This document shows, piece by piece, positions 12,348 to 24,555 of a stretch of 64,000 nucleotides of DNA. Each line of letters begins with the position of its first letter. Position 1 is the first letter of the stretch. Position numbers and translations under genes: made by a program. Below the pieces are notes generated by a model. It did not search any database. It saw only the letters and a program-made list of their open reading frames with translations, and was not told the origin of the DNA. This DNA is from Haemophilus parainfluenzae (lineage in GTDB: Bacteria; Pseudomonadota; Gammaproteobacteria; Enterobacterales; Pasteurellaceae), in NCBI RefSeq assembly GCF_900638025.1, contig NZ_LR134481.1, positions 186,001-250,000 on the forward strand, read 5' to 3'.

Positions 12348-12657
12348 TTAAAAGTATCGTGTCCTTTTCAATAATACTTGACGAAAGCGCCTTTCAAGCG
12401 TAACATTCGCCCGATTTTTTAACGAGAAGGACACACACTTTGGACAGTCATGGTCGATACCGAATATCGCTCTAGACTCTCGCCTCTTATCAGCGAGAGT
12501 TCGCTGGTAATCAACTTACCTTTCTTCGGCATCTTTTATCGAACGAAACCTATTTTTAAAACATGAAAATTTGACCGCACTTTTCCCTAGTGTTAATTTC
12601 GTTTGATCTTTTTTTGTTCACAGTTAGATCTTCATAATCCCCAAAGGAGTATGACCA
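12348..12657 (+). promoter_or_regulatory. Structured leader region upstream of corA
   Basis: 310 bp without an annotated gene. Two strong base-pairing features stand out: a long-range helix of 11 bp (12359-12369 GTGTCCTTTTC with 12424-12434 GAGAAGGACAC, one G-U pair) enclosing smaller stems such as CTTG/CAAG (12377-12380/12395-12398), and a hairpin ACTCTCGC/GCGAGAGT (12476-12483/12492-12499). An uptake sequence lies at about 12573-12586 and AAAGGAG precedes the corA ATG. The layout suggests a cis-acting RNA controlling corA. It does not match the M-box, Mn2+ riboswitch or other consensus that I know. Confidence 0.5.
12450..12566 (+). CDS. Candidate 38-residue leader peptide upstream of corA
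   Basis: ATG at 12450 opens a 38-codon frame (starting MVDTEYRSRL, ending in TGA 12564-12566), with GGA 6 nt upstream. It spans the ACTCTCGC/GCGAGAGT hairpin and ends 91 bp before corA. In Salmonella, corA is controlled by a translated short leader (corL) coupled to Rho termination; this frame could be an analogue, but I see no sequence similarity and it may be chance. Confidence 0.25.
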   Translation: MVDTEYRSRLSPLISESSLVINLPFFGIFYRTKPIFKT

Positions 12658-21074: not shown

Positions 21075-23771
21075 CTAAGCATATCGGGCTTTATTGCCGT
21101 GACAATGCTTGTATTTTTTACCTGACCCACAAGGACAAGGTTCATTACGTCCAATATGGCGATCTGAATAATCCTCGCTTTGAGCTTGCTCTGTGTTTTC
21201 ACCTACAGGATGATGCGTTTGAGCTTCACGCTCAGCCATTGCTTGACGTGCACGTTCTGCTTCTTCCATCTCTTCCTGCGTACGTACTTTCACACGAGTG
21301 AGTGTCGTAATCACATGATGTTTTAAAGAATCTAACATTTCAGTAAACATACGGAAAGATTCTTTTTTGTACTCTTGTTTTGGATCTTTTTGCGCATAAC
21401 CACGTAAATGAATACCTTGACGTAAATAATCCATTGCAGCCAAGTGCTCTTTCCAGAGTTCATCAAGGGTTTGTAACATCACGCCTTTTTCGAAATGACG
21501 AATGGTTTCTTCACCCGCAAGCGCTTCTTTCGCTTTGTATTCATCTTCCGCTTCTTGAATAATGCGTTCACGCAAGTTTTCTTCGTGAAGATTATTATTT
21601 TCTTCTAACCAATGTTCAATTGGTAACTCAAGGCCAAACTCTTGCGCTAAACGCTCTTCTAAGCCTTTAATATCCCATTGTTCTTCCAAAGATTGCGGTG
21701 GAATATACTGGTCAATCACATCGTTAAATACATCGCTGCGGATTGCTTTAATAGTCTCTGAAATATCATCATTATCGAGCAAGTAATTACGTTGTTCGTA
21801 AATCGCATGACGTTGGTCGTTCGCTACATCATCATATTCAAGCAAGTTTTTACGACCATCAAAATGGAACGCTTCTACTTTCGCTTGCGCTGATGCGATC
21901 ACTTTAGCAAGAAGCTTGGACTCCATCGCTTCGCCTGGTTGAGAGAAGGCTTTACGCATCATATTTAATTTACCTTCATTTAGATAAATGCGCATTAAGC
22001 CATCTTCTAAAGAAAGGTAGAAACGTGAAGAACCAGGGTCACCTTGACGACCTGAACGACCACGCAACTGGTTATCAATACGACGGGATTCATGACGTTC
22101 TGTCCCAATAATATGTAAACCACCGGCTTGCATCACGATCTCGTGATTTTTCTCCCACTCAGCTTTAAGTGCCTCGATTTGCTCTGGGGTTGGATTATCC
22201 AATTTTGCAGCTTTTGCTTTCCAGTTACCACCCAGGATAATATCGGTACCACGACCTGCCATATTGGTTGCAATAGTTACTGCACCTGGTGCCCCGGCTT
22301 CAGCAACAATTTCCGCTTCTTGTGCGTGGAATTTTGCATTCAATACGTTGTGTTTGATGCCCGCTTTATCTAAAGCTTGAGAAAGCATTTCAGATTTTTC
22401 AACTGATACCGTACCGACAAGAACAGGTTGATTGCGAGCGACGCAGTCTTTGATATCTTCAATAATTGCATTGAATTTGTATTCTTCATTCTCAAACATA
22501 ACGTCCGTACGATCATCACGAATCATTGGACGATTGGTTGGGATAACGACAGTTTCCAAACCATAAATTTGTTGGAATTCAAAGGCTTCGGTATCTGCTG
22601 TACCAGTCATACCCGCTAATTTGTCATAAAGACGGAAGTAGTTTTGGTAAGAAATAGAGGCAACAGTTTGGTTTTCGCTCTTAATCTCTACCCCTTCTTT
22701 CGCTTCGATCGCTTGGTGTAAACCATCAGACCAACGACGACCCGCCATAGTTCGACCAGTGTGTTCATCGACGATCACGATCTCACCATCTTTCACGATA
22801 TAGTCTACATCGCGCTCAAATAAGGTGTTTGCACGTAATGCCGCCATAACGTGGTGTAACAACACAATACGCGCTGGTGAATAAAGGGAATCACCTTCTG
22901 GCATTAAACCTTGTGCGATTAACCACTCTTCTACTTTTTCTTGACCGCGTTCAGTTAAATACGCTTGTTTAGTTTTAAGATCTAAGGTGTAATCGCCTTC
23001 ACCGGTATATTCTTCCGTATCTTCTTTTTCTTGCTTAATTAAATTCGGAATTAATTTATTTACCGCAATATAAAGCTCAGAACTGTCTTCCGCTTGACCT
23101 GAAATAATCAACGGCGTACGTGCTTCGTCGATTAAGATCGAGTCCACCTCATCCACTAAGGCATAGCCTAAATGACGTTGGAAACGCTCTTCTTTAGAAT
23201 GCGCTAAGTTATCACGAAGGTAATCGAAACCTAATTCGCTGTTTGTCGCGTATGTAATATCAGCCGCATAAGCTTCACGTTTTGCTTCAGGCGGTAAACC
23301 AGGGATATTCACCCCAACAGTCATACCTAAGAATTCAAATAACGGACGGTTGGTATCCGCGTCACGACGTGCCAAGTAATCATTCACTGTCACAACATGT
23401 ACGCCTTTACCTTCCAATGCCATTAAATAACAAGGCAAGGTTGCGGTTAAGGTTTTACCTTCACCGGTACGCATCTCTGCGATACAACGATTTGTTAGCA
23501 CCATACCACCAATTAATTGCACATCGAAATGGCGCATGCCGAGTACACGTTTACCCGCTTCACGCACGGTAGCAAACGCTTCTGGTAAAAGTTGTTGTAA
23601 AGTTTCACCGTTAGCTAAACGGCTACGGAACTCGTCAGTTTTCGCTCTTAATTCATCATCACTTAATGCTTCAAAAGCCGGTTCCATTTTGTTGATTTTC
23701 GCAACTTGTTTTCTTAATCTGCGTAAAATACGTTCGTTACGGCTGCCAAAAATTTTTGTTAAAAAACTCAT
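21075..23771 (-). CDS. secA: Preprotein translocase ATPase SecA
   Basis: 898 residues from ATG 23769-23771 ([15 protein letters not shown]), the standard start, with GAAAGAGA just upstream; the frame is open about 77 codons further into the secM gene without support. Walker A is GEGKT (103-107), and DEAD-like box VDEVDSI follows. The C-terminus bears the zinc finger [13 protein letters not shown] that binds SecB. SecA drives preproteins through SecYEG. Expression is probably set by the upstream secM arrest gene. Confidence 0.97.
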
Positions 23772-23846
23772 AATTTCTCTTTCAAATAAAAAATAAAAAG
23801 GATCATCCGATAAAAAAATCGGTTCGTTCAAAGATAAAAGAAAATT
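23772..23846 (-). promoter_or_regulatory. secA: secM-secA intergenic RNA with potential masking of the secA ribosome-binding site
   Basis: Read on the minus strand, the first bases of the intergenic segment (23836-23846, starting with the last two bases of the secM stop, AATTTTCTTTT) can pair with AAAGAGAAATT at 23772-23782, which contains the secA Shine-Dalgarno: 10 of 11 positions pair, two as G-U. Between them lies a second hairpin CCGAT/ATCGG. A ribosome halted near the end of secM would open the masking helix, as known in Escherichia. Confidence 0.6.
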
Positions 23847-24162
23847 AAATGATGGCTGGGCCGGCACGAATAGGGGCAAAAACAGGGAATTCTGCCGCAA
23901 TAAAGTGCGGTTGAATTTTTTCGTGTTTTTGATTGGAATGGGTTTTGTGATTTGTTGGCTGAGGTTGAACCTGCAATGCTTGACGAATTTCACGCACCGC
24001 AATCAACATATGTTGTTCAGATGATGTTTGATAATTTTCGCCACTCATATTTGATGAAGGTGGCACCTCCAATCCCTGAGCAGCAGGTAAAGCAAAAATC
24101 GCAATCATGCTTAACAGCAACTGCGACCAGAAATTTGTTTTACCTTTGTTTGATTTCATCAT
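23845..24162 (-). CDS. secM: Secretion monitor SecM with arrest motif FAPIRAGP
   Basis: 105 residues: signal peptide (basic [12 protein letters not shown], hydrophobic core [16 protein letters not shown]), a variable middle, and the C-terminal [11 protein letters not shown]. The IRAGP end is identical to the Escherichia SecM stall motif (GIRAGP) and the API core matches the form known from Mannheimia (HAPIRGSP). SecM nascent chains stall in the ribosome tunnel until pulled by SecA, which exposes the secA start region. Stop codon lies only 3 residues beyond the Pro. Immediately upstream of secA on the same strand; AGAG precedes the ATG pair. Short, low-similarity gene easily missed by annotation. 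Confidence 0.88.
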
Positions 24163-24234: not shown

Positions 24235-24555
24235 GTGGAAAACAAGCATGAGCGTTATCAAAAGGCCATGAATATTATTGATGTGCTAGAGGGATCACAA
24301 TTTGTCAAAATCATGCAGAAAGGCTTAATGTTGAATGAACTGAACCAAAATATCAGTCGCCTTTTCCCACAAGAATTCAAAGGACTTTTTCGGTTAGGCT
24401 CCATCACAGATGGGAAACTCTTTATCGAAGTCAAAAGTGCGGTCGTTCGACAAGGAATTTTATTTCGCCAACGAGAATTACTCACTGCAATTCAACCAAC
24501 TTATCCCGAAGTAAAAGGATTTGAGATTAAAATCAACCCAGAATTAACCTGCTAA
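24235..24555 (+). CDS. DUF721 (DciA-like) protein
   Basis: 106 residues beginning at a GTG (24235), the only start that keeps the N-terminal helix. Contains the DUF721 core LFRLGSITDGKLFIEVKSAVVRQGIL with its K-homology-like fold. DciA is the replicative helicase loader/operator in bacteria lacking DnaC/DnaI; Haemophilus has no dnaC, so this is a reasonable candidate, although the protein is shorter than typical DciA. It is divergent from secM, with 72 bp between. An uptake sequence lies inside the gene (about 24433-24444). Confidence 0.72.
   Translation: MENKHERYQKAMNIIDVLEGSQFVKIMQKGLMLNELNQNISRLFPQEFKGLFRLGSITDGKLFIEVKSAVVRQGILFRQRELLTAIQPTYPEVKGFEIKINPELTC

Follow-up and report, generated by a model that had tools for sequence, protein, structure and literature searches.

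The SecM of Escherichia coli is a long arrest peptide (PF06558, about 170 residues) that is encoded before secA and carries the motif FxxxxWIxxxxGIRAGP. According to the available part of PMC10951299, its Arg163 lies in a 23S rRNA pocket, and the Ala164 carbonyl takes the sole hydrogen of the A-site proline. The stalled E. coli ribosome opens a stem that hides the Shine–Dalgarno site of secA, and SecM occurs in a long and a short class, the latter in Pasteurellales (both from the accessible text of PMC10987492). Two further peptides, described in the accessible part of PMC7886326, invite comparison. The first is the SecM of Mannheimia succiniciproducens, a member of the small class that ends HAPIRGSP. 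The second is SecM(Ec-Sup1), FSTPVWISQAPPIRAGP, an E. coli SecM engineered to have two prolines ahead of IRAGP, which is in use as a strong arrest peptide.

Here, we report an analysis of the secM–secA locus of Haemophilus parainfluenzae in a window of 64,000 nucleotides (NZ_LR134481.1, positions 186,001 to 250,000), compared with SecM genes across Pasteurellaceae and other families. It is very probable that the gene encodes a short secretion monitor of the Pasteurellaceae class with an ordinary motif, and that a Pro-His-Phe (PHF) segment upstream of its arrest core is kept mainly as a DNA uptake signal.

Methods

The Pasteurellaceae table covers 139 of the 140 genomes examined; the SecM of the remaining genome (G054) was found later and was not added. 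Arrest cores were extracted by a rule demanding R..P close to the C-terminus, preceded by I, V, L or M; this rule notwithstanding, a row was obtained from every genome that PF10818 matched. A second, weak SecM-like match to PF10818 in G108 (L119), which falls below the cut-off, contains one stop and lies away from secA, was left out of the table for want of a secA. From other families, 101 loci gave 97 rows; L152, L187, L212 and L213 gave none, L213 being a second match in genome G409 without secA. The rule misread L201, which really ends NRADPDSLHA; this locus counts among the 97 rows and was excluded from the tree, footprint and uptake-signal-position analyses.

The tree was built from the N-terminal parts of SecA from 139 Pasteurellaceae and 95 others, leaving out L220 with its short SecA, and states were reconstructed on it by parsimony. 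In the footprint test, we asked whether a stalled ribosome lowers the cost of opening the secA Shine–Dalgarno region, in comparison with shuffled spacers. The two uptake-signal dialects were counted in all 140 genomes, and secM was inspected in 139; dialects were assigned from genome counts with both strands summed (Hin, at least 205 copies; Apl, at least 173; six genomes with neither).

The secM gene and its place

The features of the locus are collected in Table 1. As the earlier note had claimed, the interval holds a reading frame of 105 residues; it lies on the minus strand, the plus strand being interrupted by stops. The frame scores 71.4 bits against PF10818 (SecM_small; cut-off 26.1) and 108.4 bits against the NCBIfam equivalog NF038363 (cut-off 45), which is far beyond chance. 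The long NCBIfam model NF002799 gives 19.6 against a cut-off of 100, and PF06558, the long SecM family, has no match in the genome from which the window was taken. Over its full length the protein is 95–99% identical to those in five Haemophilus records, four of them named H. parainfluenzae. The next gene downstream on the same strand is secA. The N-terminus resembles a Sec signal as judged by hydropathy and its basic start only, the peak (2.88) falling on 11 residues from residue 15, and the limit at about 30 residues is our own estimate.

Table 1. Features of the secM–secA locus; positions are those of the window.
Feature	Position	Strand	Remarks
secA	21075..23771	−	Start codon at 23771; the list of open reading frames gives a longer in-frame start
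secM–secA spacer, 73 nt	23772..23844	−	
Possible 5' arm of a helix covering the secA Shine–Dalgarno region	23835..23844	−	Partner 23784–23775; pair probabilities about 0.4–0.6
secM, small type, 105 aa	23845..24162	−	Stop codon 23847–23845; open-reading-frame reading and family models
Arrest core PIRAGP (Pro97–Pro102)	23857..23874	−	Arg99 codon 23868–23866; Pro102 codon 23859–23857
Hin-dialect DNA uptake signal AAGTGCGGT, exact 9-mer inside secM	23903..23911	+	Complement encodes Pro-His-Phe, codons 23910–23902 (−)
Signal-sequence-like N-terminus	24073..24162	−	Basic start, hydrophobic stretch at about residues 10–25; from hydropathy
Divergent upstream neighbour, DciA-type (PF05258)	24235..24555	+	39.9 bits, cut-off 24

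In the core, the arginine is residue 99, the glycine 101 and the proline 102; Val-Phe-Ala-Pro precedes IRAGP, and there is no Trp near the core. The tail is Ala-Ile-Ile, so the three residues remarked on after the proline are confirmed, and a tail of this length is ordinary (76 of the 139 Pasteurellaceae SecM). The gene resembles the small class (PF10818, NF038363; the short class of PMC10987492 as far as its accessible text goes) in length, place, signal-like N-terminus and PIRAGP ending, and nothing sets it apart from that class. With the long E. coli SecM it has the IRAGP core and the place before secA in common, but it is shorter, lacks Trp at Arg-8 and has Pro rather than Gly at Arg-2. 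The Mannheimia peptide likewise belongs to the small class and has API before Arg, but there RGSP stands in place of RAGP and His in place of Phe. SecM(Ec-Sup1) also has Pro directly before IRAGP; unlike the window peptide, it keeps Phe150 and Trp155, has two prolines and is not natural.

Rfam, at gathering thresholds, has no match at secM–secA, solved structures searched with the SecM sequence gave two weak, unrelated matches only (E 0.15 and 1.1), and a promoter scan found one site, fewer than the mean of 2.7 for shuffled sequences. Elsewhere in the window, Rfam places an Aggregatibacter sRNA 54 (RF02899) at 12398–12504 on the plus strand with 82.6 bits.

The family models, the place, the signal-like N-terminus and a conserved I-R-x-x-P bear out the earlier identification of a SecM-type gene before secA, whose product would be predicted from its sequence to arrest translation. 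The frame is a real and ordinary gene that already has a name, and its motif is the one usual in the family; gene, place, family and motif, together with the conservation of the core as a peptide, are direct observations.

The arrest motif across Pasteurellaceae

A small SecM is present in all 140 Pasteurellaceae genomes examined. PF10818 matches it in 139 of them, covering all 43 genera, and secM stands before secA in each of these 139 tabulated genomes. The exception, G054, has a diverged SecM ending ILIRAGPKPIV, which was found by protein search. A match to the RAGP codons on contig C44 of the same genome (L180) was rejected as its SecM, being an unrelated and putatively IlvD-like reading frame.

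Isoleucine, arginine and the last proline of IR..P occur in 139 of 139 Pasteurellaceae SecM, an invariance that for R and P is partly built in because the extraction rule demanded R..P. The codons of the core vary synonymously: Pro, Ala and Gly are each written with four different codons, and Arg with six. The core reads RAGP in 128 genes, RGSP in 10 and RASP in one; Pro precedes Ile in 132, and the endings include PIRAGP (121), APIRAGP (56), FAPIRAGP (10) and HAPIRAGP (6). All ten FAPIRAGP genes belong to the genus of the window, where the proposed conservation among near relatives was found in 10 of 11 genomes; in the remaining one, G079, the ending is HAPIRAGP. To have FAPI in place of xAPI or xxPI is a genus-level spelling, and the window SecM has the default Pasteurellaceae form. 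Between 0 and 7 residues follow the core proline in the 139 genes. One SecM (L098, from G082) has PPIRAGP directly followed by a stop, so that it ends on the arrest proline itself.

Ancestral and derived cores

The earlier note had taken the peptide for a natural intermediate, a hybrid of the Escherichia and Mannheimia arrest motifs. IRAGP is indeed common to it and Escherichia, and API to it and Mannheimia HAPIRGSP. However, PIRAGP is the majority ending, and parsimony reconstructs both RAGP and the Pro ahead of Ile as basal in Pasteurellaceae, with three changes of the core within the family. A single clade of 13 (support 0.983) takes in all ten RGSP genes, together with three RAGP genes. 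Since RGSP is confined to this clade and RAGP is basal, the Mannheimia form is derived from that of the window, and the window peptide is no intermediate. Two of the three RAGP genes in the clade are HAPIRAGP (L100 and L101), so transitional or reverted forms do exist, though not here. Motif frequencies and the SecA tree rule out the hybrid reading, to which we assign almost no probability. The earlier note was right in its gene call and wrong in its evolutionary reading.

Tryptophan and proline upstream of the core

The comparison with other families refines known ground. In their 97 rows, Trp stands at Arg-8 in 86 and Gly at Arg-2 in 92, against none with Trp at Arg-8 and 132 with Pro at Arg-2 among the 139 Pasteurellaceae SecM. 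The two sets represent two natural solutions, Trp plus Gly and Pro in the absence of Trp, though neither is universal. It had been noted that the Trp and Phe needed in Escherichia are not conserved here. For Trp this is correct, the nearest case being one Pasteurellaceae SecM with Trp at Arg-7 (L101). For Phe the statement needs qualifying, as other families do not strictly conserve Phe at Arg-13 themselves: in their 97 rows that position holds 43 F, 30 H and 12 Y.

On the Pasteurellaceae side, seven genes have neither Pro before Ile-Arg nor Trp: L015, L054, L067, L089–L091 and L108, with endings ALIRAGP, ILIRAGP, IIIRAGP, ISIRAGP and YSIRAGP. L015 comes from G058, a genome listed with 6% contamination. 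Because these 7 of 139 lack both residues, the proline is not indispensable. On the other side, Enterobacterales SecM have Arg (seven genes) or Leu (two genes) in place of Trp, for example GIRLAQLQGIRAGP. Arg replaces the E. coli Trp, with RAGP kept, in L190, L192, L194, L197, L199, L210 and L234, and Leu does so in L196. These exceptions on both sides are ready-made test peptides. The work of Yap and Bernstein from 2009, which lies behind SecM(Ec-Sup1), reportedly established that remodelled C-termini can arrest.

Two long SecM genes before secA have changed cores, NRADP in L201 and TRAGP in L187. The latter ends LGTRAGPKLSLV and is a real variant that the extraction rule missed. Both are possibly decaying or altered arrest genes.

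An uptake signal within secM

Upstream of the core, conservation is strongest for Pro-His-Phe, which occupies Arg-14 to Arg-12. Read on the opposite strand, the codons of this tripeptide, CCGCACTTT, together with the preceding A, include AAGTGCGGT, the DNA uptake signal of the Hin dialect, of which the window carries the exact 9-mer. This signal has 1276 copies in the genome of the window, against 40 of a backwards control. Unlike the usual signal, it occupies a fixed codon position in secM: among the 91 genomes with the Hin dialect, the exact Hin signal lies at offset −43, counted from the Arg codon, in 67 (16 of 22 genera) and anywhere in the secM frame in 75. The Apl signal, ACAAGCGGT, occurs at offset −70, where it encodes xQAV, in 33 of 42 Apl-dialect genomes (12 of 17 genera). 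These counts run over related genomes, and as few as two separate origins may lie behind the two positions. The Apl signal is absent from secM in all 91 Hin-dialect genomes and the Hin signal in all 42 Apl-dialect genomes; neither occurs in secM of the six dialect-less genomes, nor at those offsets in 96 SecM genes outside Pasteurellaceae. The first 430 codons of secA are poor in signals: 117,390 bases from Hin genomes contain three, which all come from a single genus, and the 54,180 bases from Apl genomes contain none.

The PHF segment was at first thought likely to be an arrest element, which would make it the small-class counterpart of Escherichia Phe150 and the signal a product of codon chance; this reading lost ground once the codons of PHF were recognised as the uptake signal. 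In its favour, His is the second commonest residue at Arg-13 in other families (30 of 97), and PHF places His and Phe at Arg-13 and Arg-12; moreover, PHF persists in L025 and L068, where a synonymous change has broken the signal. Against this, the codons are nearly frozen: where PHF stands there (n = 71), CCG is used in 69, CAC in 71 and TTT in 69, whereas their usage in secA of Hin-dialect genomes is 0.42, 0.43 and 0.68, respectively. The absence of the Hin signal from secM of the Apl-dialect and dialect-less genomes argues in the same direction, as does the loss of the site in Hin-clade genomes with few signals, namely G079 (205 copies), G128 (357) and G129 (334). An arrest role for PHF is accordingly unlikely, and the codon evidence suggests that PHF is kept mainly because its codons are the DNA uptake signal.

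Weighing against a pure uptake reading, as do L025 and L068, are the 24 of 91 Hin-dialect genomes without the signal at −43. They include the seven genomes of the genera g11 and g40, which have the highest signal counts and carry signals elsewhere in or near secM; G082, G085 and G097 are of Hin dialect and have no exact signal in secM. Three Apl-dialect genes (L085, L086 and L094) contain two exact Apl signals in opposite orientation, at offsets −70 and −32, a pair that could form an mRNA hairpin just before the arrest core.

Proposed control of secA

The mechanism set out here for the window gene, including stalling, its release, the control of secA and a compensating role of the proline, is modelled on E. 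coli SecM and on engineered peptides. Guided by the signal sequence, the nascent SecM chain would reach the Sec translocon. Under slow export, the ribosome would stall with Gly101 in the P site and the prolyl-tRNA for Pro102 in the A site, Arg99 anchoring the chain in the tunnel. The stalled ribosome would hold the mRNA open at the start of secA, so that more SecA is made, and pulling by the translocon would relieve the stall. In the small class, Pro97 before Ile98 accompanies the absence of the Trp of Escherichia, for which it may compensate.

In the footprint test, one representative per genus (43 genera) gave a mean gain of 1.26 kcal/mol, against −0.10 in shuffles; 37 of the 43 lay above the mean of their own 20 shuffles (sign test 1.6e-6), and the gain was at least 2 kcal/mol in 10. 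For 24 SecM genes of other families the mean was 1.51 against −0.10, with 16 of 24 above their shuffles (sign test 0.15). While the family shows a clear trend, the window itself gave −0.2 kcal/mol when the footprint spanned 15 nt and about 0.3 when it spanned 18 nt, and its predicted helix (23844–23835 with 23784–23775) starts just past the ribosome footprint; G079, of the same genus, gained 1.9.

The unconvincing secA hairpin of the window would suit a frame that is translated but no longer arrests, a relic that couples secA to upstream translation. The I-R-x-x-P of all 139 genes, kept under free synonymous change, and the FAPIRAGP of 10 of 11 genomes of the genus stand against such a relic, which we consider extremely improbable; a working secretion monitor is the reading we retain.

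A helix at the end of secM that pairs with the Shine–Dalgarno sequence was considered as the cause of the short tail and rejected: the mean rank was below 0.05 in 8 of 43 genera, and the genus of the window stood at 0.35. The corresponding permutation test was suggestive, 67 of 20000 permutations reaching the observed sum over the 43 genus representatives.

Discussion

To call this arrest gene ordinary forestalls a false 'missing link' story. The most useful by-product of the analysis is the uptake signal written into the tunnel segment of an arrest peptide. Findlay and Redfield are said to have worked earlier on uptake signals and proteomes. We found no report of an uptake signal within secM in the open-access literature. 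In general, uptake signals are biased toward gene ends (PMC2346458, accessible text). PMC12616744, which gives an extended form of the Hin signal, counts SecM among those proteins that co-vary strongly with signal dialect and attributes this to the Sec dependence of pilins; it also warns that signal-rich coding sequences can create such co-variation, naming trmO, and its accessible text contains no statement that secM carries the signal. The embedded signal offers a simpler source for the published co-variation, which, if our reading is true, would arise at least partly from the signal within secM and not from Sec-dependent pilins (PMC12616744, as far as its accessible text goes).

How a tunnel segment became free for this use is a matter on which we can be only tentative. 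It is conceivable, though we lean against it, that in small SecM the Pro before Ile-Arg lifted the need for Phe and Trp upstream, and that transformation then took the segment over.

For studies of arrest peptides in competent bacteria, these observations carry a warning: the best-conserved segment upstream of an arrest core may be kept as DNA and not as an arrest determinant. On the tentative view that natural transformation took over the segment, selection for DNA uptake would dictate residues of an arrest peptide within the ribosome tunnel, and a switch to another dialect would alter its sequence.
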